From assembly GCA_029882535.1 (NCBI GenBank), contig JAOUKM010000008.1:1-56781 (forward strand): a DNA stretch of 56,781 bases, given 5' to 3'. The number at the start of each line of letters is the position of its first letter. Position 1 is the first letter of the stretch. This DNA is from Candidatus Bathyarchaeota archaeon. GTDB lineage: Archaea; Thermoproteota; Bathyarchaeia; Bathyarchaeales; SOJC01. A program made the translations under genes and the position numbers. The notes beneath the pieces were generated by a model, which worked only from the letters and a program-made list of their open reading frames with translations, searched no databases and was not told where the DNA came from. This document shows positions 38,085 to 56,781 of the stretch, piece after piece.

Positions 38085-38431
38085 AAAAGTTGAAGCAAAT
38101 CAGAGAACTGTTAGTAGACCTTTACGGGTGCAAGGCCGACCTTGATAATGTTGAATTCTTAATTTATGTCTTAGAGATTGCAGCTCAAGAGATGGGAAGC
38201 AAGATAATAAAAACAACATCTCACAAGTTTTCGCCGGAGGGTACAACTGTCATCATCATACTTGCTGAGACGCACATATCAATTCACACGTGGCCAGAGC
38301 ACAAATATGCTGCTTTAGACATTTTCATATGCAGCGAAGAAATAGACCCTGAAATGGGATGGCAAGCTGTAAAAGATGCCCTACAACCTTCTTCTTTTGA
38401 AATTCGCAGGATTACAAGAAAAATAGAATAA
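38081..38431 (+). CDS. speH: S-adenosylmethionine decarboxylase proenzyme
   Basis: A 116-residue pyruvoyl-dependent enzyme that makes decarboxylated AdoMet, the aminopropyl donor for polyamine synthases. The self-cleavage serine is in AETHISIHTWPEH (about S67), and the pair YAALDIFICS follows. Length and motifs match the small prokaryotic class. GTG 38081 overlaps the bpsA stop by 4 bp, so donor-making and donor-using enzymes are translated together. Confidence 0.95.
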   Translation: MKKLKQIRELLVDLYGCKADLDNVEFLIYVLEIAAQEMGSKIIKTTSHKFSPEGTTVIIILAETHISIHTWPEHKYAALDIFICSEEIDPEMGWQAVKDALQPSSFEIRRITRKIE

Positions 38432-39140: not shown

Positions 39141-39743
39141 TCACTTTTTCCTAGCGAAAAGCTCTCTATATTTCTCATCAATACGTTCCATAATCTCCTT
39201 ACTATCTGCTAGAAAGTCAGTTACTCCTTCGCCTTTAGCCATCGTGACGAGTTTTTCTGAAGCATCAATCCACTTCTTTGAAGCTGCAACCCAAGCCTTC
39301 ACAATATCAGACTCTTCAGCGACAAAATCTATTGCTTCTTCAGGACACATCTCTTTACATTTGGGATTTCCATCGCAGAGATCGCATATAACAACAGTGT
39401 CGGCGTCGCTATCATATCTTATTGCACCATACTCGCACGCTTCTAAACACCACTTGCAGCCATCACATTTCTCGTCGTCAACAAGTATGGCTCCAGTTTC
39501 CTTAGATTGAAATAATGCATCCTTAGGACAAGCTCTTATGCACGGTGGGTCTTCGCATTGTTTACAGGTAACTGCTAGATGTATGAAAGGAGGGCCTCGA
39601 ATAATGCGAATTCGAGACTTGATAGGATTAAGTGTCCCTTCTTTTTCTAATGAGCAAGCAAACTCGCATATGCTACATCCAACACATTTTTCAGGGTTGA
39701 CAGACAAGAACTTTTTAACGATTTCTTTTTCCTCTGCTTTCAT
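39141..39743 (-). CDS. HycB-like 4Fe-4S ferredoxin, second copy
   Basis: A 200-residue electron carrier with four cysteine clusters of the dicluster/HycB type (CVGCSICEFAC, CKQCEDPPCIRACP, CDGCKWCLEACEYG, CDLCDGNPKCKEMCP), enough for up to four 4Fe-4S centres. A helical C-terminal tail of about 55 residues is not in its neighbour. It is last in the AOR operon, 33 bp after its paralog, and probably passes electrons from the tungsten enzyme to a cellular acceptor. Confidence 0.92.
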   Translation of the reverse strand: MKAEEKEIVKKFLSVNPEKCVGCSICEFACSLEKEGTLNPIKSRIRIIRGPPFIHLAVTCKQCEDPPCIRACPKDALFQSKETGAILVDDEKCDGCKWCLEACEYGAIRYDSDADTVVICDLCDGNPKCKEMCPEEAIDFVAEESDIVKAWVAASKKWIDASEKLVTMAKGEGVTDFLADSKEIMERIDEKYRELFARKK

Positions 39744-39776
39744 CGTAAGGGATCTCTTAAGTTACCGTATTTATTG

Positions 39777-40280
39777 CTATTCAGAAGCTTTTTCTACAGC
39801 CTCATGGAACAACTTTTCTACTGCAGTTCGCCTAGCTTTTTGAGCAAGAACGTCTGCCGTCACAAAGTCCAAGGCTTCCTCTGGGCACCATTCAACGCAT
39901 TGGGGTTTGCCCAGTTCCTTGCATGTATCGCACACATAGACCACTTTTTTCTCAGGATGCAGCATGATTGCACCGTAATCGCAAGCTTCGATGCACCATC
40001 CACATCCATTGCATTTTTCTTCGTCAACCACAATTATTCCCGTGTTTTCTTCTTGGGATAATGCGTCTCTTGGACAAGCAGCAACACATGGTGGGTCTTC
40101 GCAAAGTCTGCATGCTACTGCCAAGTTTACAAGGGGGCCAAGCCTTATGGCACGTATTCGCGACTTTGTCGGGTTGAAAGTTTTTTCTTTAACCATGGAA
40201 CACGTGTACTCGCAGACACAGCAGCCGATGCATTTTTCTGGGTCTGCTGAGACAAATTTCCTTTCGTGAAGCTTTGGCAA
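39777..40280 (-). CDS. HycB-like 4Fe-4S ferredoxin, AOR partner
   Basis: A 167-residue ferredoxin with the same four clusters as the next gene (CIGCCVCEYTCS, CRLCEDPPCVAACP, CNGCGWCIEACDYG, CDTCKELGKPQCVEWCP). It begins one base after the aor stop, as in AOR operons where this subunit receives electrons from the oxidoreductase. The strong similarity to the following gene indicates a tandem duplication that has since diverged. Confidence 0.92.
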   Translation of the reverse strand: MPKLHERKFVSADPEKCIGCCVCEYTCSMVKEKTFNPTKSRIRAIRLGPLVNLAVACRLCEDPPCVAACPRDALSQEENTGIIVVDEEKCNGCGWCIEACDYGAIMLHPEKKVVYVCDTCKELGKPQCVEWCPEEALDFVTADVLAQKARRTAVEKLFHEAVEKASE

Positions 40281-40281
40281 G

Positions 40282-42147
40282 TTATTTCTCTCCTCTTCCT
40301 TTCACTATGTAAGCAAACTCACCTAAGTTCAGTTCGTTGAGTTTCTTGATTGTGGGAATGCCTTCTTTTGTCCATCCGCGTGTTTCGTAATAGTCATCTA
40401 ATCCCAGCTCAAATTCTTCTTTGTTAACGACGCTTCCCTTCGCAACTCCCTCGTCAGGTATGGGTACAGTCATTATTTTTGGTGGCAAGGCATCGTATTC
40501 CCTTGTTCCCATGCCTTCTCGGACGTTGAAAAGCCTTGCTAGATTGTTTATTCTTTCGCCAGCTTTTCTCAATTCTTTAACGGTTATTTTAATACCAGTT
40601 GCTAGAGTATAGTACTTAGCCATGTCTTCAAGGCCGTCATAATATGTGCCTCTCGAGAATTTGCATAATATAAGCGAGTCAATGACGTTGTACACGTCTT
40701 CGTTGTCCATAACTATTTTTCCCCTTCCTTTCTCAATGACGAAGCGATTTACCTTACCCTTGACGTCAGGTGAGTAGGCACCAGATCGAAGGTGGCAAGC
40801 TCCTCGGAAAGAAACCGCAAATCCTATGGCTGCTGTCTTCAAACCTCTTATGTCATAGCCTGGTAGCTCCAAACCTTTAATGTGACAAGCGTATTTTTCA
40901 GCGCCTTTGCCGATTTTTTCAGCTGCTCTCTTGGTTCCCTCTGCTAGCACATCACCCAACCAGCCATCCCGAGAACCGATCTTCTTCACCATTTCTATCA
41001 AGGCTTCATGATTTCCAAAGCGAAGGTCTAAGTTGTCAGTATTTTCTTTTGTGAGAATTCCATTCTTGTACAAATCCATGGCAAAACTGACGATAACTCC
41101 TGTAGAGATGCCGTCTACACCATAATGGTTGCATAGGCGCATTGCTTCAACAATTGCGTCCAACCGATCGACACCGCAGTTTGGTCCAAGCGCCCATAGA
41201 CATTCGAATTCCATTCTTGAAGTTGATCCTTTGTACGGGCCTTCAGGTACAACCGCTACATGGTCGCAACGCATGGCACATGTTGCGCACCCGATTATTT
41301 TCTTTACGTAATGCTCGTTCAAGTATTCTCCGCTAACTTTTTCTGCTCCTTCAAAGGTGGCTTGAGTGAAGTTACGCGTTGGTAAGGCTGCAAGAGCGTT
41401 TAAAACAAGAACGTTTTCGGGGGTTCCAAGGGTTCTGTATTTTCTCGTTGCAGGGCCTTTCATGTGTTCATGTATCATCTTTATGAATTCTTTGAATCCT
41501 TCAAGGTCTGCTACGTTCACATCTTTTGTTCCGCGAACAGCCACAGCTTTCAGGTTTTTAGAACCCATTACAGCGCCCATGCCAGTTCTTCCGATGGCTC
41601 TGAACTCGTCGTTTATGATTGACGCGAAACGAACGAGTTTTTCTCCAGCTTCGCCGATTGCTGAGACACGAATGTAATAGTCACCTAATTCTTCTTTGAT
41701 ATCTACATCCGTTTCATATGGTGACTTTCCTTTCAGGTGCTGGGCATCCAGCAGATGAACCGAGTCATCGTCAATCCATGCATACACAAGTTTTTCAGAT
41801 TTTCCTGTAAAGATAACTGCGTCATAGCCCGCTCGTTTCAGTTCAGGTCCAAAGAAGCCGTGAGCCTTAGACTCAGCTATTCCTCCAGTTGCAGGTGATT
41901 TCGAAACCACTGCATATCCGTTTCCTGCAGTAGGTCCCATAGTGCCGCTGAGAGGGCCTGTTACAAAGATCAAAGGGTTGTCAGGGCTGAAAGGATCAGT
42001 ACCTGGCTTTGAGTTATCCATGAGCAGGCGAATGCCGAGCCCTATGCCTCCAATGTACTTCTTAGCCATTTCCTCTTTCAATGGTTCTGTTTCGACTTTT
42101 CCAGTTGAGAGATCAACGCGTAATATTCGTCCTGCATATGATGACAA
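40282..42147 (-). CDS. aor: aldehyde ferredoxin oxidoreductase (tungsten enzyme)
   Basis: A 621-residue AOR-family enzyme that oxidises aldehydes to acids with ferredoxin as acceptor. The N-terminal domain starts GRILRVDLSTGKVETEPL and contains GGIGLGIRLL, FVTGPLSGT and IGRTGMGAVMGSKNLKA for the tungstopterin. The 4Fe-4S cysteines are CATCAMRCDH with a later C in LILCKFSRG. The pterin loop GYDIRGLKT and SGAYSP follow. Substrate range cannot be decided between AOR, GOR-like and other branches. It is the first gene of the operon with two ferredoxins. Confidence 0.95.
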   Translation of the reverse strand: MSSYAGRILRVDLSTGKVETEPLKEEMAKKYIGGIGLGIRLLMDNSKPGTDPFSPDNPLIFVTGPLSGTMGPTAGNGYAVVSKSPATGGIAESKAHGFFGPELKRAGYDAVIFTGKSEKLVYAWIDDDSVHLLDAQHLKGKSPYETDVDIKEELGDYYIRVSAIGEAGEKLVRFASIINDEFRAIGRTGMGAVMGSKNLKAVAVRGTKDVNVADLEGFKEFIKMIHEHMKGPATRKYRTLGTPENVLVLNALAALPTRNFTQATFEGAEKVSGEYLNEHYVKKIIGCATCAMRCDHVAVVPEGPYKGSTSRMEFECLWALGPNCGVDRLDAIVEAMRLCNHYGVDGISTGVIVSFAMDLYKNGILTKENTDNLDLRFGNHEALIEMVKKIGSRDGWLGDVLAEGTKRAAEKIGKGAEKYACHIKGLELPGYDIRGLKTAAIGFAVSFRGACHLRSGAYSPDVKGKVNRFVIEKGRGKIVMDNEDVYNVIDSLILCKFSRGTYYDGLEDMAKYYTLATGIKITVKELRKAGERINNLARLFNVREGMGTREYDALPPKIMTVPIPDEGVAKGSVVNKEEFELGLDDYYETRGWTKEGIPTIKKLNELNLGEFAYIVKGRGEK

Positions 42148-42955: not shown

Positions 42956-45379
42956 TTAGATGCTGAGTGGAACATTTTTGGTCTTTGTCGACTTCTTTTT
43001 GGCTAATGCAACGGCAATTGTAGCTGCTATGAGAGACAACACTAGAGCGGAAGATCCTGGAAATTCTGGTATAGTCACTTGTGCATTTTCCACGTCGTGT
43101 GGAAGAGGTATTGCGGAGTCGCTGTAGTGCCATGGGCAGAGTGCCCTGTCTTGATGTGGGAATCCTGCGACGCCGACTATAATCTCGTTGCAGTAGAACG
43201 GGTCATTTGGATCAACGCTGCATATGCACCCGATTTGATCGACTATGATGTCAGTGGCTATTTTGTCTATGATGTATGGTGCTGTTATGCTGTTCCGTGT
43301 GTTGTCTTCAAGTGTAATGATGTCGCCAACCGTGAGGTCGCCGCTAGTGTCTTCGTCTGACCAGCCTACGCAGTTGTGGGTTCTGAAGGGCCATGCGTAA
43401 GTCTCGGTCCAGTTGGTGTTAGTTGGGTCGCTTAAGGCTAGGAAGTCTGTGTATGTGCCGTCATACTCCACAATGTAAGGTGTTGGGTCGGGTACAGCGT
43501 TATAGTCGACTAGGATATCTGCGGGTACAGTGTAGTTTATCCAGTATTGAGTGCCTACAGGCCATGCTTCTGGGTTTTCTGTGATGTTGGCACCGAAGTC
43601 TAGTGCCCACCAGCCTTCGATTTCGTTTGGCCAGTCTCCCTCATACCAGTACTCGTTTGGTGGTCCTGTTTCGAATCCCAGGTTTCGCGCCCATCGCGAG
43701 GTTCCATTGTTGAAGTCTACCCAGATGCTTTGGAATCCGCTTGCCATATGCTCAATGCCTGGCCATCCTGCTGGTGTTCCGTTGATGCCTGCAATGTAGT
43801 ATTCGTTGATTACTTGCTCGTCGAGAGGTGTAAGCAGTTCTACATTGGGAGTGCCCGTATGCACGATGAAGTCCGTTCCTTCAACCAAGTCGTAGGGTGC
43901 GCTGAATGGCGGGGTCACATGGATAGAGTTCACAGAAGATACATCGTAGCTCAATGAGAAGTTGCCTGTCCAGTACGGGTTGCCGTCTTTGTCGTTGTAT
44001 GTACCCGTGTCAGCTACCACTGGCTTATCCCATACATCAGGTATACCGTCCACGACAGTGAATTCCTGAGTGAGCTGGAAGGGTTGTTGCGTCATTTCCA
44101 AGGTGCCGGCAAGGTCGTTCACCACGTATTCGTGCCAGAAATCGCTGGTTGTATCGTTTAGCATGATTTTGTCTCCTGCGCTTAGCTCTCCATCAAAATC
44201 GGCGTCTACCCAACGGGTCAGCTCAACATTTGTGCCATAGTCATCGGGGTTAACCATAGTCCAAAGCTCGCCTACAGGACTCGCGAGGTCAATCAACCCT
44301 GAATCAGCATCAGGTGTTGCTTGATGTATGAACAACGTTGGATTCTTCAAAGTTATGTCTACAGAGAGATCGGGGGGGCCTGCATAGGTTGCGTTGAACG
44401 TCACAGTGAATATGCGGAAAGTGCCTTCAGGTGGTGTGTGGTTGCTTGTATCTATGTCTGGTATTCCTAGAAAGGCAACATGCACTGTTCCTGCGGTGTT
44501 ATCGAAGTCTTCGACAAGTTTGATTATGCCGCCTGGCCAAAATGCTGTGAAGGTTCCATCTGGGTCGATGGTGACGTCAATGGCTTCCATGATTATGTAA
44601 GGAGCAGCTGAACGGCTGAAGTGCATCCATACGTCAAAGCCTCCGACATCCCAGAATGGGTCTAAATCTGTTTCGTCTTCTGCCATTACGTATACGTCTG
44701 AGGTGAATTGGGTGCCTGTCGGTGGCTGGGCAGTTTCGGGCATGATTTTCAGCATAGGTTTCGGTGGATACACGTAGGGTATTTTATGTAAAATGACAGT
44801 TCCATCGTAAACATCCCATCCTCCTGGGAGAGGATCGCCGGGTTTATCTGACAAAGCGGTGTATGTAAACCTAAAATCCATAACAGCATCTGGTTCATAA
44901 AGCTCCCATGGATGTTTTATTATCATGAATGTCATGTTGAAGGCTTTGCCCGTGCCGTCGAATGATGGCGCTGGATCCATACTGGCGTATGAAACCCAAT
45001 AAGTGCCCGCTACTTCGTCAACGTCATCTTTAACACTTATTCCAGGTTCCCATAGTACACCGTCTGGGTAGTCGTCAGCTGGGATTGTCATCGTGTGGCT
45101 TACATACGCTAGGTACTCAGTGTCCCATGCGAATTGGAGGTCGAGACCATAAAAATTTGTGACGTTTTCAATGTTTACGTCGATAGTGAATTCTTGGCCT
45201 GTAGCATTTGCGGGGCCAAACTCTAGAGTGGCAGGAACTACTCTGATAGCTGAATCTGCTGCATAAGTGGACGGGGCCTGCGCCAGTAACGTAATGATAG
45301 TGGCTGTTACAAGTGTGATTAAAATCAGCATGGTTTGCGAAGTTCTTCTGCTAATCAATTGACATGAATTCTTTCTCAA
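42956..45379 (-). CDS. secreted cohesin-like protein with PEF-type surface anchor
   Basis: An 807-residue surface protein. Residues 15-41 are a signal peptide. Two cohesin-like beta modules follow (about 43-195 and 207-365); the first has FYGLDLQFAWDTEYLAYVSH and VSYASMDPAPSFDGTGKAFN. Two calcium-type loops come next, DADFDGELSAGD and DEDTSGDLTVGD, each starting a repeat unit with W before it. The C-terminus IPEFPGSSALVLSLIAATIA plus a KKK tail is a PEF sorting signal for archaeosortase-type processing. The middle is shared with the protein at 48617. Many N-x-S/T sites suggest glycosylation. Function beyond surface display or binding is inferred. Confidence 0.85.
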   Translation of the reverse strand: MRKNSCQLISRRTSQTMLILITLVTATIITLLAQAPSTYAADSAIRVVPATLEFGPANATGQEFTIDVNIENVTNFYGLDLQFAWDTEYLAYVSHTMTIPADDYPDGVLWEPGISVKDDVDEVAGTYWVSYASMDPAPSFDGTGKAFNMTFMIIKHPWELYEPDAVMDFRFTYTALSDKPGDPLPGGWDVYDGTVILHKIPYVYPPKPMLKIMPETAQPPTGTQFTSDVYVMAEDETDLDPFWDVGGFDVWMHFSRSAAPYIIMEAIDVTIDPDGTFTAFWPGGIIKLVEDFDNTAGTVHVAFLGIPDIDTSNHTPPEGTFRIFTVTFNATYAGPPDLSVDITLKNPTLFIHQATPDADSGLIDLASPVGELWTMVNPDDYGTNVELTRWVDADFDGELSAGDKIMLNDTTSDFWHEYVVNDLAGTLEMTQQPFQLTQEFTVVDGIPDVWDKPVVADTGTYNDKDGNPYWTGNFSLSYDVSSVNSIHVTPPFSAPYDLVEGTDFIVHTGTPNVELLTPLDEQVINEYYIAGINGTPAGWPGIEHMASGFQSIWVDFNNGTSRWARNLGFETGPPNEYWYEGDWPNEIEGWWALDFGANITENPEAWPVGTQYWINYTVPADILVDYNAVPDPTPYIVEYDGTYTDFLALSDPTNTNWTETYAWPFRTHNCVGWSDEDTSGDLTVGDIITLEDNTRNSITAPYIIDKIATDIIVDQIGCICSVDPNDPFYCNEIIVGVAGFPHQDRALCPWHYSDSAIPLPHDVENAQVTIPEFPGSSALVLSLIAATIAVALAKKKSTKTKNVPLSI
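43083..44320. repeat. duplicated block, copy 1 (matches 49385-50590)
   Basis: Long near-identical runs shared with 49385-50590 at the nucleotide level, for example GCCGCTAGTGTCTTCGTCTG near 43340 and near 49620, with small insertions and silent changes between. Both copies are in the same orientation and code the same module. It indicates a fairly recent duplication or ongoing gene conversion. Confidence 0.8.
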
Positions 45380-45529
45380 ATCTTAGTCACCGTAGCTTTT
45401 AAGTATTTATAGATGTGTATTTGAATTTTGCTATGTTGCGATTAGTATGCACACTTGACTGAGATGTATTCTAAGAAAAAAAGTATTTTTTTAAAAAAAG
45501 GAAAGTGAGTTTTTGATGACTGCTAGCTG

Positions 45530-47440
45530 TTAGGGGCAGGTTTGTCCGTAGCGCGACGCGATTGTTACAAGGTCATATATCTCGATGATGCCCCATATAG
45601 GCGCCAAATCTACTTCTGGATTCCAGTTGGGATCTCCTTCTCGAGACCCGTAAGCTCCACAGGCTGCGGTAAGATCGTAGATGTCAATTATTCCGTCGCC
45701 ATTTACGTCGCCTATCATCTTGATTTTAACGAAGCCATCGGTGTAAATGTTGTTTTCGATGTTGATCTCGTATGGCACTTGCCAAGCTTCCGCTTTTATT
45801 GTGTAGTTATTGCAGGGTTGTAGGCCAGTTGTGTTCCAAGTGAAGGTCAATGTTGTGTTCCGATGTGGTGCCAGATTAAAAACAGTCTGTGTTCCAATCT
45901 CGTTGCTGTCATAGTATGCTGTCACGTTAAAGGTTTCTATCATATCTCCTAAGTTTGCGGCGACTACTGTGACGTTTACTAGACGACCAGGGTATGTTGC
46001 GTTGCGTGATGTTCTAACGTCGACTATTGCCACATCTCTTATGAGTGTGCAGAAGAAGCCATCTCCAACTTCATGTGACATCGCTCCGCCATATTGATTA
46101 ATGATTTTTGTGTTGTGTAAGTCAAGTTCTGTGCTTCCATAAGTTTGAACTTGGAAATAGATTGTTGCAATCGTGGTTGGAATAAGAATGGTTTTCGGAG
46201 TTGCCGGAGAATGATATGTAACATTGATCCATATATTCCCAGCCTCATCATTTATAGACATCTTTAAGATGAAGTTTGTATCATTGTCTGGTGGAATGGT
46301 AATTGCTCCTAGGCAAGTTATGATGTCGGTGTCGTAGGCTAAGCTGAGGTCATAACCGTAGAAGTCAATAGCGTTCTCCACTTTTATATCGATGTGGAAT
46401 TGGTCGCCTGGTTTTAGAGTTGGATCAATGATTGTCGGGGGGTCGACATATAGCTTTGTTACTAAGATGTTGTTGAAGTATCCGTCTCCTGGGTCTTCGT
46501 ATGGAACTGTTCCATTCCACGTGTCTATGAGGGTAATGTTGTGCAGGTTGAGTATGGTTCCGCCGACTTCCGTTACGTGGAAAGTGATTGATGATATTAT
46601 TAGGCTGCCGCTGACGGGGGTTGATGCGGTTGCGGCAACTCGGATTTGCCCTTCGGGTTCTGTTATTTGTATTTCGGTTGGAGGTGAGAATGGTGGGTTT
46701 ACAGTGACATTGACTGTGTCTAGTATTGTGGTGTTGTAGCTCAGCTGGAATTCGAAGCTTTCTAGTTCTACGATTTCTTCAAGGTTTATATCGATGGTGA
46801 AGTTTTTGCAGGGTTCTAGCGTTGAGTCAACGATTTTTTCTGGGTTGACGTATATTCTAGCCTCTGATGGAGCGTAATTGCTGAAGTACCCGTTCTGTTT
46901 ATTGTGGTTAATTGGATCTCCGGGCTTGTCGGAAAGGTAAGTTAGGTACGCTTCTAGGAGGCATGTGCCTATTCCGATTACTTTGAATGTCATGTTGAAG
47001 ACTTTGCCCGTGCCGTCGAACACTGGTGCTGGGTCCATAGACGCGTATGCGACCCAGTATGTTCCTGCAGTTGCGTTTACTTCGTCCTTTATTTTTATTC
47101 CTGGTTCCCATAGGATACCGCTTGGGTAGTCGTCAGCTGGGATTGTCATTGTGTGGCTTACGTATTCTAGAATTGCGGGGTCCCATCCGAATTGGAGGTC
47201 TATTCCGTAGAAGTTGGTGATATTGGCGATTATGACGTCTATGGTGAAGGTTTCTGAGATGGATAAGCCTGTGATAGATGGGGGGTCCACATAGACTAGG
47301 GGTGTTTCTTGTGAGAATGAGCTGTCAATGTTAAGCGCAGAAGTTACGGTTAGTATTAGTACGGCGAGAAGTATACCGTATATTCTTTTTGTTTTTAACA
47401 TATTCTCCTCTCTCTCTAGTCTATAGAAGTTGTCTAACAC
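45530..47440 (-). CDS. secreted protein with three cohesin-like modules and a C-terminal dockerin
   Basis: A 636-residue protein. The signal segment lies at about residues 14-40. Three cohesin-like modules follow (about 45-185, 188-320, 325-465); the first has FYGIDLQFGWDPAILEYVSH and VAYASMDPAPVFDGTGKVF. A CARDB-like beta domain is at about 470-560 (VNVTVVAANLGDMIETFNVT). The last 65 residues are a dockerin-like pair: DVNGDGIIDIYDLT then DLAPIWGIIEIYDLV, the second loop partly degraded. A protein that holds both receptor and docking modules could link into chains. No catalytic domain is seen. An internal start at the LKTKRIYG Met would shorten the lead. Confidence 0.85.
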   Translation of the reverse strand: MLDNFYRLEREENMLKTKRIYGILLAVLILTVTSALNIDSSFSQETPLVYVDPPSITGLSISETFTIDVIIANITNFYGIDLQFGWDPAILEYVSHTMTIPADDYPSGILWEPGIKIKDEVNATAGTYWVAYASMDPAPVFDGTGKVFNMTFKVIGIGTCLLEAYLTYLSDKPGDPINHNKQNGYFSNYAPSEARIYVNPEKIVDSTLEPCKNFTIDINLEEIVELESFEFQLSYNTTILDTVNVTVNPPFSPPTEIQITEPEGQIRVAATASTPVSGSLIISSITFHVTEVGGTILNLHNITLIDTWNGTVPYEDPGDGYFNNILVTKLYVDPPTIIDPTLKPGDQFHIDIKVENAIDFYGYDLSLAYDTDIITCLGAITIPPDNDTNFILKMSINDEAGNIWINVTYHSPATPKTILIPTTIATIYFQVQTYGSTELDLHNTKIINQYGGAMSHEVGDGFFCTLIRDVAIVDVRTSRNATYPGRLVNVTVVAANLGDMIETFNVTAYYDSNEIGTQTVFNLAPHRNTTLTFTWNTTGLQPCNNYTIKAEAWQVPYEINIENNIYTDGFVKIKMIGDVNGDGIIDIYDLTAACGAYGSREGDPNWNPEVDLAPIWGIIEIYDLVTIASRYGQTCP

Positions 47441-47507
47441 GATTTAAAGATTCTGGAATCTTCTTCCACGTTTTATGTAGGATGGCAAAGGGAAGTAGTC
47501 ACCAAAA

Positions 47508-48500
47508 TTAGTACGTTGATCCGTAGATACCTGTTACTCTGACTAAGTCGTAGATGCCTATTTGTCCGTCAGGGTATAAGTCTATTTCTGGGTTCCATTT
47601 TGGACCGCTGCTTTTTGCTCCATAGATACCTGTTACTTTGACTACATCGTAGATTTCTATGATGTGGTTTAGATCGAAGTCCTCTGGAACTTGGTATTCA
47701 ACTGAGAATGTGGTGTTTTGGAGAGCTTTCCAGCCTTGGCTAAAGGCTCCGACATAAACGAAATGCGTGTCTGAGTATGGAGCTTCATGTGGCGGTATTC
47801 GGAATGTTAGTTCGTAGTTTCCAGTACTTTGGGTGGGAGGCGGGCTTTGACTTGCATGCTCTTCTATGGCAAAGTTTGCTGTTTTCTCTGGGCAGTATGG
47901 ATAGCCATTGTTTTTGGGCCAGTCTTCATAAGCGTTCGCAGTTGCCAACGCAGTTCCAGTGGATACCCAATCTTCGATCCACATGCTTGGCATGAAGAAA
48001 ATTTCTTGATTGCCGGGAATGGTAAGTTTCACCCATGCCATACCAATCGGAGTGAGGTCAATGTCAAAAATGTTGACTACTACTAAGACGGATTCATCAA
48101 GTGGAACGTTGTTTCTTACGGTTGCTTTGAAGTAAGCCCTGGCGTTTCTGGCGAAGTTGTCTTTAGGGTGGCCGCTCGCATTGCATGGTATGATTGAAAC
48201 GGTTTCAATTGTCAAAGGCATTGACGGGGTTGTGTTAGATGGTACAGTTCTGAGCACGATTGTTTGACTCATAGAATCTTCCACTTGTATCGCAACTAAG
48301 CCTTCTTCAACCTGTTGTCCTTCGTACGTCACGTTTCCGTAAACGTTGACAGCTTGTCTGTATCGATATGATGATTTGTCGGTTGTGACTGTGGCTTCTA
48401 AGGGTTCAAATGGTGAGATGCCTAATTTCGTGAACCACGCTAGGGTTATTAACGTTAAAAGGAAGATCACGCTTAAGCTTTTCATTACAGTGAGTTTCAT
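47508..48500 (-). CDS. secreted beta-sandwich protein with C-terminal dockerin
   Basis: A 330-residue protein with a signal segment at residues 7-27, an MG2/Ig-like module (TDKSSYRYRQAVNVYGNVTY), a second beta domain with the conserved-looking WVKLTIPGNQEIFFMPSMW, and a dockerin at about 270-330. The dockerin has two loops, DFDLNHIIEIYDVV and DLYPDGQIGIYDLV, each ending VTGIYG, and the PKWNPEIDL link. It is the simplest candidate to dock onto the neighbouring cohesin-like proteins. No enzyme domain was found. Confidence 0.8.
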   Translation of the reverse strand: MKLTVMKSLSVIFLLTLITLAWFTKLGISPFEPLEATVTTDKSSYRYRQAVNVYGNVTYEGQQVEEGLVAIQVEDSMSQTIVLRTVPSNTTPSMPLTIETVSIIPCNASGHPKDNFARNARAYFKATVRNNVPLDESVLVVVNIFDIDLTPIGMAWVKLTIPGNQEIFFMPSMWIEDWVSTGTALATANAYEDWPKNNGYPYCPEKTANFAIEEHASQSPPPTQSTGNYELTFRIPPHEAPYSDTHFVYVGAFSQGWKALQNTTFSVEYQVPEDFDLNHIIEIYDVVKVTGIYGAKSSGPKWNPEIDLYPDGQIGIYDLVRVTGIYGSTY

Positions 48501-48616
48501 CTTTCTCCCTTTTATTAAGGGTCAGAGAGGTTTATTAGCATTCTGGAATTGATGTTCATGTGTCTTTGCGGTGAAATAAAAAAGGGGGGAGAGAGTCAGT
48601 ATTTGGTTGGGCCTTT

Positions 48617-51600
48617 TTAAGGCGCCCATTCAGCTAGTATGCCGACTTCTGGTATAGGTTCGAACAGTGCGCAAAGCGCACAACCGCCTTCTTGCGGGAA
48701 GTCGCTTAGAGCTCCAACGAGTATCTTAGCTACGCCAGCGCGAGCGAATTTCTCCACGTGTACAGTGAGGATGACTTGGTCGTTGTTGTAGGTGCAGTAT
48801 TCTGCTCCTCCGATTACAACCCAAACGTAAGCGAAGGCGAATGGAACTCCAGTCTCGTCTACAATTGTGACGGTTATTAACACGTTGTAGTACTGCATTG
48901 CGTAACTTCCGAAGTCTACTGTTACTTTAATGTCTTCGCAGTGAGCGTACGTGTCTTTGTCAGTTGTAACGTCCCATAGGTTTACGAGGTAGTCGTACTT
49001 GAAGGGCATTATGTCTTCAACTACGAGGCAAGCGACGTCAACTGTTCCGACGATAGTCCATTCTCCGAAGTAGGATTCTGGGTTGTCACATGGCCAAGGT
49101 AGCCTTATGAATACCCATGCGTAGCCTGTTGAGTTTGTTCTGGCGTATTCTATAGCCCAAACGTTGTGTTGTGGATCTTTTATTTCGAAGGCAACGTCCT
49201 TGTTCTGCTCTGGCCAGAAGTTGTATGTTACGTAGGCGTAGAGGTAGAAGCCTTTCTGCGGCCAGTACATGTCGCTTGGCACATTTGGACCTTGTCCTCC
49301 GTATGGGGCTGGGTAGTCTGTAAAGATGTCAATCCATGCTCCTGGAGGCTTGAAGAACGATTCGAAGACTCCGTCTTTTACTACGTGTGGGAGGGGTACT
49401 GCAGAGTCGCTGTAGTGCCATGGACACCATCCTCTTTCAGGATGTGGGAACCCTGCGATGCCGACTATCGGTATAATTCCGTAGAACGGGTCGTCGGGGT
49501 TCGTGTCACATATCACGCCTATTTGGTCTACTATGACGTCAGTGCCCACATGGTCTACTAGGTATGGTGCTGTTATGCCGAAGTTGTCTGCAGTTGTGAT
49601 GATGTCGCCAACCGTAAGGTCGCCGCTAGTGTCTTCGTCTGACCAGCCTACGCAGTTGTGGGTTCTGAAGGGCCACTCGTAAACTTCGCTCCAGTTGGTG
49701 TTGGTTAGGTCGCCTAAGGCTAGGAAGTCTGTGTATGTGCCGTCATACTCAAAAACGTAAGGTGTTGGGTTGGGTACAGCGTTATAGTCGATTACGATCT
49801 CTGCGGGTACGGTGTAGTTTATCCAGTATTCGGTGCCTACAGGCCATGCTTCTGGGCTTGGGTAACCCCAGTCTAGTGCCCACCAGCCTTCAATTTCGTT
49901 TGGCCAGTCTCCCTCATACCAGTACTCGTTTGGTGGTCCTGTTTCGAATCCAAGGTTTCGCGCCCATCGCGCGGTTCCGTTGCCGAAGTCTACCCAGATG
50001 CTTTGGAATCCGCTTGCCATATGCGCAATGGCTGGCCATCCTGGTGGCATTCCGGTGACGCCTGCAATGTAGTATTCGTTGATTACTTGCTCGTCGAGAG
50101 GTGTAAGCAGTTCTATATTGGTAGTGCCAGCGTGTACGATGAAGTCCGTTCCTTCAACCAAGTAGTAGGGTGCGCTGAATGGCGGGGTCACATAGATAGA
50201 GTTCACAGAAGATACTTCAAAGCCCACTGAAATGTTGCCTGTCCAGTACGGGTTGCCGTCTTTGTCGTTGTATGTACCCGTGTCAGCTACGACTGGTGGG
50301 TCCCATACACTAGGTATACCGTCCACAACAGTGAATTCCTGAGAGAGCTGGAAGGGTAGCTGCGTCAACTTCAAGGTGCCAGCAAGGTCGTCCACCACGT
50401 ATTCGTGCCAGAAATCGCTAGTTGTATAGTCTAGCCTAATTTTGTCTCCTGCGCTTAGCTCATAATCAACATCGACGTCTACCCAAGAAGTCAGCTCAAC
50501 ATTTGTACCATAATCATCAGGGTTAACCATAGTCCACAGCTCGCTTACAGGACTACCAAGGTCGATTAGCCCTGAATCAGCGTCAATCATTGCCCGATGT
50601 GTGAAGGTGAGAGGATTCTTCAATTTTAGCTCAACTGCCGGTGGCGGGTACGTGTCTGACTCGTAAAGTGCATTGAATGTCACACTGAACACACGGAAGA
50701 CACCATAAGGCGCATCATGCCCTAAGACTTCGTCTGGAACTCCAAGGAAGACAACATGCACTGTTCCAGCAACGTTGTCGATTGACTTTTCAACCTCAAG
50801 TACTGGGGGCGAACTATAGAAGAAACTGCCAAAGTCTCCGTCAGGGTCGATATCTACATCAACTGCTTCCAAAAGCAACTGCGGAGGATTAGCACGCTTA
50901 AAGTTCATAACTATGTCAAAGCCAGCGACATCCCAGAACGGATCAAGATCGTGTTCTGTATCGTCGGTCGTGTTGATTCCCATAATGTACACGCTTACTT
51001 CGAAAGTGGTGCCCATCGGCAAACCTGAAACTTCAGGCGGATCTACCTTAAGGTAGGGCAGATTCGGATACTCGAAAGGCTTGGTTTTGATCACCACGAG
51101 TCCTGGGAATTCATCCCATGTTGGAAGGGGATCACCAGGTTTGTCAGACAGGCCAGTGTATGTAAAGGCTATATCGATGTTAGCATCTGGTTCAGGAACT
51201 GATGGTTGATATTTTATCCTGAACGTCATGTTGAAGACTGTGCCATCGCCGCTCCATTCGAGTGCTGGATCCATACACGCGTATGCAACCGCATAAGTGC
51301 CCGCTATTGGATCTACGTTATCCGTAACGAACATTCCTGGTTTGTGTAGCACGCCGCCGGGGAAATCTTCTACTGGAATAGTTGCTGTGTGGTCTAGATA
51401 TTCCAGATAGTAAGGATCCCATGAGATTTGTATGTCAAGACCGTAAAGCATCGGGTCGTTAATGTTTCTAATCCAGCATTCAATGGTGAACACTGTACCT
51501 ACACAAGGCGCAGGTCCAAACTCTAGATATGAAGGCTCGATTGAAACTGATGGGTCGACTTGCGAGTATGCCATCGGTATCGCAATCGCTAAGGCGCTAA

Positions 51601-51703
51601 AGGTAAGCATTGCAGCAAAAAGTATAGCTACTAGTCTCTTTACTTTAATGTTCATATTGTACTTTCTCCTTTCTCTTTCAGCAATAAAGAAAAAAGACTT
51701 CAT
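48617..51703 (-). CDS. large secreted cohesin-like protein, paralog of 42956 gene
   Basis: A 1028-residue protein. The signal segment (LVAILFAAMLTFSALAIAIP) is at about residues 25-46. Two cohesin-like modules follow (about 52-205 and 215-385, the first with YGLDIQISWDPYYLEYLDH). The central block of about 390 residues matches the protein at 42956 closely, including the calcium-type loops (DVDVDYELSAGD, DEDTSGDLTVGD). The last 240 residues differ: two beta-sandwich domains (TDKDTYAHCEDIKVTVDF) and no PEF anchor or membrane helix. It may thus be released or held by other proteins. The N-terminal start may be at a later Met near residue 17 (MNIKVKR). Confidence 0.85.
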   Translation of the reverse strand: MKSFFFIAERERRKYNMNIKVKRLVAILFAAMLTFSALAIAIPMAYSQVDPSVSIEPSYLEFGPAPCVGTVFTIECWIRNINDPMLYGLDIQISWDPYYLEYLDHTATIPVEDFPGGVLHKPGMFVTDNVDPIAGTYAVAYACMDPALEWSGDGTVFNMTFRIKYQPSVPEPDANIDIAFTYTGLSDKPGDPLPTWDEFPGLVVIKTKPFEYPNLPYLKVDPPEVSGLPMGTTFEVSVYIMGINTTDDTEHDLDPFWDVAGFDIVMNFKRANPPQLLLEAVDVDIDPDGDFGSFFYSSPPVLEVEKSIDNVAGTVHVVFLGVPDEVLGHDAPYGVFRVFSVTFNALYESDTYPPPAVELKLKNPLTFTHRAMIDADSGLIDLGSPVSELWTMVNPDDYGTNVELTSWVDVDVDYELSAGDKIRLDYTTSDFWHEYVVDDLAGTLKLTQLPFQLSQEFTVVDGIPSVWDPPVVADTGTYNDKDGNPYWTGNISVGFEVSSVNSIYVTPPFSAPYYLVEGTDFIVHAGTTNIELLTPLDEQVINEYYIAGVTGMPPGWPAIAHMASGFQSIWVDFGNGTARWARNLGFETGPPNEYWYEGDWPNEIEGWWALDWGYPSPEAWPVGTEYWINYTVPAEIVIDYNAVPNPTPYVFEYDGTYTDFLALGDLTNTNWSEVYEWPFRTHNCVGWSDEDTSGDLTVGDIITTADNFGITAPYLVDHVGTDVIVDQIGVICDTNPDDPFYGIIPIVGIAGFPHPERGWCPWHYSDSAVPLPHVVKDGVFESFFKPPGAWIDIFTDYPAPYGGQGPNVPSDMYWPQKGFYLYAYVTYNFWPEQNKDVAFEIKDPQHNVWAIEYARTNSTGYAWVFIRLPWPCDNPESYFGEWTIVGTVDVACLVVEDIMPFKYDYLVNLWDVTTDKDTYAHCEDIKVTVDFGSYAMQYYNVLITVTIVDETGVPFAFAYVWVVIGGAEYCTYNNDQVILTVHVEKFARAGVAKILVGALSDFPQEGGCALCALFEPIPEVGILAEWAP
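49385..50590. repeat. duplicated block, copy 2 (matches 43083-44320)
   Basis: Direct-orientation copy of the block at 43083-44320. It covers the two calcium-loop units and the segment between them. The copy differs by short in-frame changes, for example a shorter segment around the WWALD motif and a changed first EF-type loop, so both copies remain coding. Confidence 0.8.
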
Positions 51704-52049
51704 AGATTAAAAAGGTTTCTGGAGAAATGTTCTAGTTGCTTACAACGAGGTCAAAAAAGACCCATTACACGCCAAGTTAACAAATTCAAGACTTCCAACA
51801 TTAAGCCTCACACACCACACAATTCCAAATAAAGAAACAAACAGTAAGACTTCCCCTTTCTTTTGCATGCAATACAAGCTGTTTCATTTCTGCAAAGCCT
51901 AAAAACTAAAACAATCACCTTTCTAAGCCCACAATAGCCTAACTACTCAAGACGCACTTACACACATAAGTTAATCCTCAAGTAAAAAAGAGATAGCCTT
52001 AAAAACTAAAACTTAAATCAGTAAACTAAACAGTAGTAACCAAATATCG
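51704..52049. other. intergenic gap between divergent surface genes
   Basis: A 346-bp gap between two divergent secreted-protein genes. It is A/C-rich on the plus strand and has no open frame that looks coding. TAAAAACTAAAAC occurs twice, at 51900-51912 and 52000-52012, exactly 100 bp apart, and may belong to promoters. Nothing else is supported. Confidence 0.5.
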
Positions 52050-54113
52050 GTGATGAAGTTGAATTCACAGAAAACACTTAAAATCTGCATTGCAATAGTT
52101 CTCTTCTTAACATCAAGCATCCTGACCACACCCAAACTAGCGTTTTCCCAAAACGCATCCACTGATCAAACAAGCCTACAACCGTTGTCTGATGGTCTTC
52201 CTGTGCTATACGTCAGCCCAGAAAGCAACACTGGACAAATTAACGACTACTTTACCATCAACATCATTGTTGCAAATGTTACGGATCTTTACGCTGTTGA
52301 CATCCAATTTGCATGGGACCCCGCAATTCTAGAATACGTAAACCACACGGCGATGGTTCCAGTGGAAGACTTCCCCGGCGGCATCCTACATGAAGGAATA
52401 TTAGTTATGGACAAAGTCGACACGACAGCTAGCATGCCAGGCACAGAGGAAGGAACCATGTATTGGCTAGCATACGCGTCTATGGAGCCAGCACCAGTGT
52501 TCGACGGCACAGGAACAGCATTCAACATGACATTCAAAGTGATCAAAAGTGGCGGTTGTGCCTTGGAATTCACTAATCTCTCCTTAAAGGAACTTTCCGA
52601 CAAGCCCGGAAATCCAATTAACCACGAAAGATACGATGGCTATTTCGAGTCTGCTGGAACTCCAACCGCCCGTTTCAGCTGGTCGCCCACCGTGGGCGTC
52701 GTTAACGAACCAGTGACCTTCAACGCCTCTGAAAGCTCCGACCCAGAAGGCCCCATTGTAAATTACTTCTGGGACTTTGACGACGGAAACACGGCAGCAA
52801 CACCTAACCCTGTGATCAACCACAACTTCAACCATACAAAAGACAAAGAAATCTACTACGTTTCGCTCATCGTCGAGGACAACACTGGCATAAACAGCAG
52901 CAAAACGATAGCTGACCCTCCCCTCACCGTCGTCCAATTTAGAAACATAGGACTAACTAGGATTTCACTCTCGACATATCATACTCTTATTAACACAACC
53001 ATCTACGTTAATGTCACAATCAAGAACTACGGAATTGTTCCGGAGAACTTTACCCTGACAGCTTATTGCAACATTTCATCCACAGACTGGGCACTAATCA
53101 ACACAACCACCGTGGACGGCAACCCATACAACATGACTATCGCTCCAAGCGGTCTTCCAGGCTCTGAAGTGCCGCACTCCTTCGCTTGGAACACCACAAC
53201 ACTGCCAAACCCAGAAGCATACTACAAGGTGCAAGTCAATGTAACAGGAGTCCCATACGACGACGAAACTGACAACACCATTACTTCAAAACCAGTGCAT
53301 ATCACAGAAGATTTGATATACGATCTAACCATTGAAACACTAAGTTTCCGCGCCTCACATGGAGTACTAACATTTCCGCTTCCAATCATTCTGGGAGAAA
53401 AAGCAGAAATCACAACAACAGTTAAGAACCTCGGAACTGTTCCAGAAGAAGCTTTCAACGTGACTCTGTACATTAATGGTACTGCATTGAAACAATGGAT
53501 ATTAAGCGAAACATTGACATCTGGCGCTGTAAAAACTTTAACGTGGACTTGGGAGGAAATCTTAGAACGCGGGTATTACAACATAACCGCGAAAGTTACC
53601 GTTGCCATCGAAAATGTAACAGAAAACAATATTCTTCAAGACTTTCTACGTGTCATTGAAACTCCTCAACTAGAGATAATCTACACACCCGACACACCTG
53701 TGGTAAATGAAACTGTTACGTTAAATGCCTCAAGCAGCATTCATAGAGAACCTGGAGGTCAGATAACAGGATACGCTTGGGAAATATGGTCTCCCGACCA
53801 AATTCTTGATGTAGGATCCCCTATATCCGACCTCACTGGAGTCAGTGTATCCTACACCTTTAGACATTTGGGCAATTGGACAATAGTTTTGAAAGTAACC
53901 GACAACTTTGGCTATACATACGAAACAAGAAGAACCTTAACTTCAGATTACAGGTTGGATTTGGAAATACCTATTGAATTAGCTGAAGACGGTGGCGGCG
54001 GAGAGGGCATACCTATTGAATACATTGTGGTCATAATAGTAGTGGTCATCGTTATTATAGCAGCTTTGGTTATATTCTACCGTCGACGACAACAATCACC
54101 GGCAGCAGCTTAG
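52050..54113 (+). CDS. membrane-anchored cohesin/PKD/CARDB surface protein
   Basis: A 687-residue protein. The signal segment lies at about residues 10-34. A cohesin-like module spans about 50-200 (LYAVDIQFAWDPAILEYVNH, LAYASMEPAPVFDGTG). A PKD domain follows (about 203-295, NYFWDFDDGNTAATP), two CARDB-like domains (about 300-515), and a second PKD-like domain (about 520-630). A glycine stretch leads to one C-terminal helix (IVVIIVVVIVIIAALVIFY) and RRRQQ. It is fixed in the membrane with its domains outside. It could be the anchor onto which dockerin-bearing neighbours attach. N-glycosylation sites are very frequent. GTG 52050 or ATG 52053 starts it. Confidence 0.85.
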   Translation: MMKLNSQKTLKICIAIVLFLTSSILTTPKLAFSQNASTDQTSLQPLSDGLPVLYVSPESNTGQINDYFTINIIVANVTDLYAVDIQFAWDPAILEYVNHTAMVPVEDFPGGILHEGILVMDKVDTTASMPGTEEGTMYWLAYASMEPAPVFDGTGTAFNMTFKVIKSGGCALEFTNLSLKELSDKPGNPINHERYDGYFESAGTPTARFSWSPTVGVVNEPVTFNASESSDPEGPIVNYFWDFDDGNTAATPNPVINHNFNHTKDKEIYYVSLIVEDNTGINSSKTIADPPLTVVQFRNIGLTRISLSTYHTLINTTIYVNVTIKNYGIVPENFTLTAYCNISSTDWALINTTTVDGNPYNMTIAPSGLPGSEVPHSFAWNTTTLPNPEAYYKVQVNVTGVPYDDETDNTITSKPVHITEDLIYDLTIETLSFRASHGVLTFPLPIILGEKAEITTTVKNLGTVPEEAFNVTLYINGTALKQWILSETLTSGAVKTLTWTWEEILERGYYNITAKVTVAIENVTENNILQDFLRVIETPQLEIIYTPDTPVVNETVTLNASSSIHREPGGQITGYAWEIWSPDQILDVGSPISDLTGVSVSYTFRHLGNWTIVLKVTDNFGYTYETRRTLTSDYRLDLEIPIELAEDGGGGEGIPIEYIVVIIVVVIVIIAALVIFYRRRQQSPAAA

Positions 54114-55061: not shown

Positions 55062-55430
55062 TTAGGAGTCTTTCTGTTTTCTTGGTTTCTTTTGCAATAA
55101 CTTTTCATATTCTTTAACCATGCTTTCAACTTCTGCCTTGAAAGGTTTCATTTCGGGTCCCGCGCCAAGTGGGTGGGAAGCTGACAAATATTTTATCTCA
55201 CTAAATCTGACCTTATAGTTTTTCCTCCTTTCATCGAGCCAAACAGCATATACAGAAAGGATTAGAGGTAGAATAAAAATTGTTATTGGATGCACAAGAA
55301 ATATCCACATTTGAAAGAAAAAATAAACTGCGTATAGCACTGGAACCCAGAACCAGAGAGTAGTTAAACAAGCCTTAATGATGAATAGAACTTCGGCTAA
55401 GGACTCCTTAAAGTTCTGCAATCTTTTCAA
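55062..55430 (-). CDS. small membrane protein with cytoplasmic helix
   Basis: A 122-residue protein with two to three hydrophobic segments (TTLWFWVPVLYAVYFFFQMW, ITIFILPLILSVYAVWL) and a charged helical tail (EVESMVKEYEKLLQKKPRK). No family was recognised. It has a GAG-type sequence near the start and stands alone, upstream of the 54130 gene on the same strand. The 200 bp before the next gene on the other strand hold nothing further I can support. Confidence 0.5.
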   Translation of the reverse strand: MKRLQNFKESLAEVLFIIKACLTTLWFWVPVLYAVYFFFQMWIFLVHPITIFILPLILSVYAVWLDERRKNYKVRFSEIKYLSASHPLGAGPEMKPFKAEVESMVKEYEKLLQKKPRKQKDS

Positions 55431-55645
55431 GAGAAATCCTCAGTTCAAATTAATTTGAATCTTCCGTGTATTTAACTTTTAACGTGTCTGGAAACATAAA
55501 CTAAACTACACAACCCTTCTTACTTTCATATATATTTGCTTTGATAACATTCACAAAGAGCGCAAAATGACCGCAAAGTTTTGTAAGAACTTAAGAAGCA
55601 GTTTTCCTAGTGATAATATGCTTAAACATTGATGGTACAGTTGCA

Positions 55646-56781
55646 ATGAAATCAAAAGAAGTTCTGGGTCTATTCTTTTCTGTTTTGTTAATTATGTTAC
55701 TCGCAATCAGTGTATTGCCCCTAAAAACATCTGGGCAAGAAAACCCACGAGTTCACAATCTAAGAACAGGCAAGAGTTATGAAGCAATACAAGAAGCCAT
55801 TGATGAATCGAAATCTGGGGACACTCTCTACGTAGGAATTGGGACATACCGAGAAAATGTTGTAGTGAACAAGACTATTTCACTTGTAGGAGAAAACAAA
55901 TCCAACACGATTATTGATGGAGCAGGTATCGGAAACGTGATTTATGTAACCGCAGATAACGTGGAAATAAGAGGCTTCACTATAGAAAACAGCGGATCGA
56001 TTCTTATATACGGTGGTGTGTATGCAGATCACTCAAGTGGCCATAAAATAATTGACAACATCATAAAGGACAACGAATATGGAATTTATCTCTCATATTC
56101 AAGCGAAAACTCTGTTTTGAATAATACCGTTCTAAATAACAGTTATGGGTTCGGTTCTCTCTATACCACTAATAACGTTTTTTCCAAAAATAATTTTTTG
56201 GATAACCACCAAGACGGAATCAAGCTTTACTATTCGACAAACAACGTTTTCTCAGAAAACAATGTGTCCTCACACACCAGATACGGGGCTTATTTATTAG
56301 CTTGCACCGGAAATGTGTTTTCAAATAATAGAGTTGTTGACAACTATCATGGGTTTTACGTAAGCGCTTCGACCAGCAACAAGTTCTTCGGAAACAGTGT
56401 TTTGAATAACAGTCGAGGTTTTTCCGTTGGTACCTCGCTAGATAGTACATTTTCAGGAAACAATATTTCCTCGAACAAAGATTATGGAGTCTGGCTTGTA
56501 ACTTCTAGAACCAATGTTTTCTCAAATAATTATTTAGTAGATAACGGCATTAGCCTCCGTCTCGCAACATCTGATAATAACCTCATTTATCACAACAACT
56601 TTATCAACACCATAACCAACACCACACAGCAACCAATCAGTATTGAATCACAAAATTCTTGGAACAATGGTATCGAAGGGAACTATTGGAGCAGTTATAA
56701 TGGGTCAGATAAGATCGAGAATGGAATCGGTGATACAGCATATATTATCAATGAAAACACCAACGACAGTTACCCTTAATG
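55646..56781 (+). CDS. NosD-like right-handed beta-helix surface protein (3' end likely shifted)
   Basis: A 377-residue protein from ATG 55646. A signal segment (GLFFSVLLIMLLAISVLP) is followed by the pectate-lyase/NosD beta-helix: YEAIQEAIDESKSGDTLYVG, then NGTIIDGAG-like start (NTIIDGAGIGNVIYV) and many repeats of N-x-F-S-N-N and N-N-V-F type. It ends EGNYWSSYNGSDK, GIGDTAYIIN and NTNDSYP, then a TAA at 56777-56779. In relatives the last motif continues YPLM. One extra T would give exactly TTA ATG, and the gene would run past the window. It is likely a secreted carbohydrate-related or surface-fibre protein. Confidence 0.8.

Follow-up and report, generated by a model that had tools for sequence, protein, structure and literature searches.

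Cohesins have been known in archaea since Archaeoglobus. In clostridia, type II cohesins and dockerins (the Acetivibrio adaptor scaffoldin 3l8q; C. thermocellum 2b59 and 3kcp) have cell-anchoring and adaptor roles in cellulosomes. The Limousia mucinolysome, as presented in passages of PMC12997984, resembles a cellulosome in its assembly but is directed at a different substrate, and some of its dockerin-bearing proteins are peptidases; it is bacterial and consists mainly of glycoside hydrolases, and those passages describe no dockerin-tethered ABC receptor. ANME archaea have multi-cohesin proteins that combine a dockerin with up to five cohesins, and dockerins also occur on their ABC binding proteins of the OppA/NikA and TroA types, with no evident polysaccharide role; the partners and function were left open (Chadwick et al. 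2022, PMC9012536). Here, we have analysed one contig (C8; its 56,781 nucleotides are the window) of an 83-contig, 1.73-Mb, 97% complete genome of Candidatus Bathyarchaeota archaeon, which encodes a system resembling those of ANME in these respects. On the one hand, since dockerin-bearing OppA and multi-cohesin proteins had already been reported in ANME, and archaeal cohesins before that, the parts are known. On the other hand, the Bathyarchaeia belong to a different archaeal class, and here a conserved scaffold cluster stands beside an Opp operon, dockerins are also found on C25, M14 and C13 peptidases, and an anchor-replacement pattern extends over 61 related genomes. The occurrence in Bathyarchaeia, the conservation of the link to Opp, the proteases among the cargo and the pattern of anchoring are new.

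In sediments, Bathyarchaeia rank with the most abundant archaea, and part of their nutrition is thought to come from detrital protein. Surveys of their genomes reported an apparent lack or small number of extracellular peptidases and left as a question how protein degradation starts (PMC9534799, PMC10477458); neither mentions dockerins, and we found no report on point of dockerins in Bathyarchaeia in the open-access literature. Our analysis suggests that protein-digesting and peptide-importing parts are tied to the surface by cellulosome-style connectors instead of individual membrane anchors. We consider it probable that a cohesin-dockerin surface scaffold tethers peptide receptors and proteases near an importer, and that the cluster described here is the receptor side of this arrangement. 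If peptidases and peptide receptors do sit on such a scaffold, the start of protein degradation in Bathyarchaeia becomes directly testable.

A sequence-only reading had placed five open reading frames (P1-P5) at 42956-54113, and all of them were located there (Table 1). P4, P3, P2 and P1, in the order of transcription, follow one another in the same direction on the minus strand and are separated by about 67-150 bases, and the P5 gene is divergent from this row.

Table 1. Coordinates of the cohesin cluster and its neighbours in the window.
Feature	Position	Strand	Description
P1	42956..45379	-	Secreted; two cohesins, large central domain, C-terminal PEFPG, hydrophobic segment and basic tail
P1 cohesin modules	45253-44789 and 44761-44285	-	Module profile A2
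P1 C-terminal tail region	43069-42959	-	PEFPG, hydrophobic segment and basic tail
P2	45530..47440	-	Scaffoldin-like adaptor: signal peptide, three cohesins, CARDB, C-terminal dockerin
P2 cohesin module 1	46877..47302	-	Profile A2, E 5.9e-63
P2 cohesin module 2	46469..46861	-	Profile A2
P2 cohesin module 3	46046..46459	-	Profile A2
P2 CARDB	46024-45740	-	
P2 dockerin	45536..45721	-	First loop DVNGDGIIDIYD canonical, 5/5 ligands; second degenerate
P3	47508..48500	-	Secreted; C-terminal dockerin at 47690-47511
P4	48617..51703	-	Secreted; two cohesins, central domain of unknown fold, C-terminal beta-rich region
P4 cohesin modules	51556-51089 and 51058-50558	-	Profile A2
P5	52050..54113	+	Predicted membrane-anchored receptor: one cohesin, two PKD, CARDB, C-terminal transmembrane segment
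P5 cohesin	52200-52652	+	
P5 transmembrane segment	about 54012-54096	+	
P6	54130..54978	-	282 aa, secreted, C-terminal membrane segment
122-aa conserved neighbour	55062..55430	-	With membrane segments
NosD-like beta-helix protein	55610..56781	+	Interrupted by contig end
Aldehyde:ferredoxin oxidoreductase	40282..42147	-	Plus two 4Fe-4S dicluster proteins, 39141-40280

The proposal that four secreted proteins of this cluster carry cohesin modules was borne out, and profile A2 defines eight such modules in the window (two in P1, three in P2, two in P4 and one in P5). P2 matches Pfam Cohesin PF00963 over three stretches above the cut-off (E 7e-18). At the protein level, P1, P4 and P5 fall slightly under the cut-off (20.3, 16.9 and 22.0 vs 24.1 bits); in a six-frame search of the genome with the same model, P5 passes at 24.3 bits and P1 and P4 fail. 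The first cohesin module of P2 aligns with P1, P4 and P5 at 36-46% identity. Profile A2 recovers the eight modules at E 1e-34 to 6e-63, values that are not independent because the profile was built from these same modules. When A2 was compared with the whole PDB, all 15 matches were cohesins (best E 3e-10), the best being type II cohesins of clostridial adaptor scaffoldins, which makes chance or a generic Ig fold unlikely at the sequence level; a generic Ig fold for the modules was rejected on this ground. The cohesins of P1 and P4 were assigned by paralogy, as they belong to the same family as the P2 modules and the family profile matches only cohesins in the PDB. Four further A2 modules were found in the genome outside the window, three on contig C5 and one on contig C20.

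Structure prediction against known cohesins, which had been suggested as a check, was run for P2 and agreed with the assignment. In its AlphaFold model, the cohesin modules mostly have pLDDT 80-93, with a low-confidence loop in module 1. Among its best matches by Foldseek are 3l8q, a type II cohesin dyad (E 8e-13), CaCohA2 (6kge) and 2xdh, and, by TM-score, other multi-domain beta proteins are interspersed in the list at lower coverage. With 2xdh, the non-cellulosomal cohesin of Archaeoglobus fulgidus, the model shares the archaeal cohesin fold (TMt 0.78, rmsd 2.8, 18% identity); here, in contrast, there is a multi-protein cluster with identifiable cargo and an adaptor of three cohesins and a dockerin. 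The jelly-roll fold is supported by a model for P2 only, the P4 model (1028 aa, five-sequence alignment) having pLDDT 36 and being left unused. The dockerin in the P2 model is below pLDDT 50.

The tails of P2 and P3, which had been read as dockerin double loops, are dockerins by profile, and their first loops are canonical (5/5 ligand positions); the second EF-like loops did not conform, being degenerate with 2/5 ligand positions in P2 and 3/5 in P3. The P2 tail matches the PDB dockerin 2y3n_B (E 2e-5), and all nine PDB matches of dockerin profile A1 are dockerins (best 7e-9). Both loops are canonical in the dockerins of the C25 peptidase, the M14 carboxypeptidase and the carrier on contig C24. 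In the dockerins of OppA, both repeats are degenerate, with 2-3 of 5 calcium ligands, so that calcium-dependent high-affinity binding is uncertain for them, and this is a real weakness of the proposed scaffold. In clostridial dockerins, loop positions 10-11 discriminate partners. Each of the 26 repeats examined in this genome's dockerins has Ile-Tyr there, and considering this uniformity it is plausible that the genome's dockerins share one common partner class.

P2 thus has both module types, as had been claimed (three cohesins, a CARDB and one dockerin), and receptors, anchors and an adaptor all appear to be present from their sequences; as the adaptor, P2 could form chains. The claim of a membrane anchor holds for P5, whose C-terminal transmembrane segment is strong (KD 3.67) and which has an orthologue of 49% identity in locus L071 of a related genome. 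The claimed sorting signal on P1 stands in form, with PEFPG followed by a hydrophobic stretch and a lysine-containing basic tail, but the tail gave no match to the NCBIfam sorting-signal models. An archaeosortase-family gene is present in the genome (contig C11:12980-14080, L220 2481-3581; TIGR04178, 55.6 bits), about 3 kb past the Opp operon described below, and its product is a candidate partner for the PEF-like tail of P1. This protein is nearest to the thaumarchaeosortase and ArtC models, far under their cut-offs. No anchor is evident in the sequence of P4. P1 and P4 have in common a large central domain (63% identity), which had no match in Pfam or NCBIfam; it covers P4 residues of about 385-785 (window 50550-49350) and is also found at L118 2126-6148 and L055 5483-8254, and in relatives it is fused behind a dockerin-bearing SBP_bac_5 protein. 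The N-terminal region of P3 is conserved in larger homologues of relatives, which additionally bear PKD and CARDB.

The window ends in 130 bp that match, at 99%, the first 131 of contig C11, and this overlap has no other strong match anywhere in the genome. A chance repeat at the junction was rejected for this reason, and the join of C8 and C11 is likely, though unproven. C11:2377-10135 is a complete Opp operon, encoding a dockerin-tailed OppA, OppB, OppC, OppD and OppF; this OppA begins 2.4 kb from the contig end, about 2 kb downstream of the window end if the contigs are joined, and the operon probably adjoins the cohesin cluster in this genome. With a C-terminal dockerin on OppA and a complete transporter, it fits an Opp/Dpp importer with a dockerin-tethered receptor as in ANME.

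Cohesin clusters also stand beside an Opp operon with dockerin-bearing OppA in three other Bathyarchaeia (L052, G009/L069 and L071). In G012 (L052), the Opp operon led by the dockerin-bearing OppA is followed by a P4 homologue, a P3 homologue, a membrane-anchored protein and a P2 homologue; the membrane-anchored protein at the place of P5 differs from P5, and no cohesin was detected in it. G009 (L051/L069), of the same family as the window genome, has the gene order of G012. In L071 (M8_bin1642), the order is a P1/P4-like gene, P5, a P6-like gene (2797-3660), the 122-aa gene, dockerin-bearing OppA, OppB, OppC, OppD and OppF, which equals the order of the window up to its end. Genes similar to the 122-aa neighbour are found at the cluster edge in L051/L069, L052 and L071. 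Among 61 genomes of the order, those bearing cohesins have 63 OppA-type genes, of which 18 have a cohesin within 10 kb, compared with 3.2 expected, in 11 genomes of four families.

A dockerin profile search found at least 16 dockerin-bearing frames in the genome. The three OppA-type proteins with an intact C-terminus (contigs C11, C29 and C25) all end in a dockerin and none has a C-terminal membrane segment, the copy on contig C25 being assigned by close similarity as its N-terminal end is cut off; a fourth, on contig C27, lacks its C-terminal end and lies outside this count. The recognised catalytic families among the carriers of this genome are peptidases, namely C25 (3.5e-64), which also contains its own cohesin, M14 carboxypeptidase (2.5e-60) and C13-like (2e-12), which has several dockerin repeats. 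Accordingly, the description of a compact cluster without catalytic domains did not survive, given these peptidases elsewhere in the genome and the operon with dockerin-bearing OppA probably about 2 kb beyond the window. Further carriers are several NosD/beta-helix proteins, one of them with a cohesin, and one giant PKD/MAM protein; in the carrier on contig C24, no catalytic family was recognised. In G007, of the same family, the carriers are three OppA-type proteins, C25, an S8 subtilase, and beta-helix, PKD, arylsulfotransferase-like and phosphatase-like proteins. The carriers scanned in both genomes matched no glycoside hydrolase family and had no cellulose-binding module. Since many carriers are beta-helix or PKD proteins, peptide harvesting would not be the whole story. 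On contigs C35, C43 and C12, beta-helix/dockerin genes lie at contig ends or appear split into short frames; the assembly seems to break at repeats of this family, and pseudogenes may be among the copies.

Archaeal ABC binding proteins require some attachment to the membrane. Among 36 OppA-type proteins sampled from cohesin-free genomes, 32 carry a membrane helix at the C-terminus and dockerins are absent, whereas in the cohesin-bearing genomes sampled 33 of 53 have a dockerin and six keep the helix, both samples being loci at hand and not exhaustive; the remaining proteins in cohesin-bearing genomes are N-anchored or have unclassified tails, in part dockerin-like. A dockerin-tailed OppA-type protein occurs in 16 of the 22 cohesin-bearing genomes and in none of the 18 cohesin-free ones. 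In cohesin-bearing genomes, the dockerin replaces the C-terminal membrane anchor of OppA-type proteins. At least four changes of the trait fall on well-supported branches, and the correlation is phylogenetically clustered, so that independent contrasts are too few for a test: an independent-pairs test of the anchor swap had 5 usable pairs and gave no significance, its power being too low. The presence of cohesin and dockerin agrees in 51 of 61 genomes, with 25 having both, 26 neither and 5+5 only one (p 1e-7, uncorrected for relatedness), and the exceptions bear one or two modules. Five genomes of family f7 (G037, G040, G052, G055 and G058) have a single cohesin and no detected dockerin; in most of them, this orphan cohesin forms a protein of its own, about 220 residues long.

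From the observed identity and homology of the modules, the fold of P2, the gene neighbourhood, the cargo list and the anchor replacement, we infer binding, partner specificity, surface location and a function in peptide harvesting as follows. P5, through its membrane helix, and P1, through its PEF-type tail, would display cohesins on the cell surface. The adaptor P2 could plug into P5 or P1 by its dockerin and multiply the binding sites by its three cohesins, and P4 may contribute two more. The dockerin plugs would sit on secreted cargo encoded next door and elsewhere, which comprises the OppA-type proteins, the C25, M14 and C13-like peptidases, and the beta-helix and PKD proteins. The scaffold would keep the otherwise unanchored OppA beside the OppBCDF importer and near peptide-making proteases, in which case protein digestion would be coupled to peptide import at the surface.

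It may also be considered that the modules do not pair at all, but are generic beta-sandwich stalks with tails acting as calcium-stabilised caps, their co-occurrence being a shared domain fashion in secreted proteins. The degenerate second loops of P2 and P3, the degeneration in OppA, and P1 and P4 modules under the Pfam cut-off are consistent with this. However, the PDB matches are exclusively cohesins and exclusively dockerins, the two modules co-occur at the genome level, the dockerins occupy the place of the membrane anchors of other genomes, and archaeal cohesin-dockerin binding is said in PMC9012536, citing Haimovitz 2008, to have been verified; we therefore regard the absence of pairing as improbable. 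If the modules do pair, the architecture of adaptor scaffoldin, anchored cohesins and dockerin enzymes resembles a simple cellulosome, as there is a scaffoldin with several cohesins (P2, three) together with dockerin-bearing enzymes (the peptidases), the best sequence and structure matches are to the clostridial type II modules, and beta-helix domains can be pectinase-like. In contrast to clostridial cellulosomes, the cargo consists of peptide receptors and peptidases, and anchoring would be by a membrane helix and a PEF-type tail. A polysaccharide-degrading complex is largely excluded by the cargo list, the scanned carriers of this genome and G007 being without glycoside hydrolases, and we consider it very improbable indeed.

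A general system of surface display, in which diverse secreted proteins are held for adhesion or as a matrix and the receptors and proteases are mere passengers without coupling of digestion to import, seems to us rather unlikely, yet clearly the more serious alternative. It is in keeping with the diversity of carriers in this genome and G007, which range from NosD/beta-helix proteins and PKD giants with MAM to arylsulfotransferase-like proteins and a metallophosphatase, and with PKD and CARDB modules being common in surface proteins. It does not lead one to expect that OppA-type genes are linked to cohesin genes well above expectation, that in several genera the conserved cluster lies directly next to the Opp operon, that every OppA-type protein of this genome with an intact end bears a dockerin, or that the recognised catalytic families of its carriers are peptidases. 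The sequence-only reading had favoured adhesion; the gene context is primarily indicative of peptide harvesting and uptake, and an adhesive role is possible for the beta-helix and PKD passengers.

Returning to the scaffold that tethers receptors and proteases near the importer, we put forward, more tentatively and at somewhat less than even confidence, that a surface 'peptidosome' exists in a family of Bathyarchaeia, in which a cohesin-dockerin pair stands in for the former membrane anchor of the ABC peptide receptor and brings peptide receptors and extracellular proteases together on common scaffoldins beside the importer. Connector chemistry known from cellulosomes would in this way be put to use in digesting protein and importing peptides. 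If this is true, cohesin-dockerin pairing tethers the receptor of an ABC importer, which extends the non-cellulosomal uses of the connector.

Genes of aldehyde:ferredoxin oxidoreductase, with ferredoxins, adjoin the cohesin cluster here (39141-42147) and in G012 (L052 1-1246), and another lies beside the second cohesin locus on contig C5 (L025 10852-13262); the enzyme may serve amino-acid fermentation of imported peptides. Elsewhere in the window, a BpsA_C (branched-chain polyamine synthase) domain is fused to a C-terminal GNAT acetyltransferase (36444-38084) and is directly followed by S-adenosylmethionine decarboxylase (38081-38431), and these genes possibly represent a pathway for branched, acetylated polyamines.
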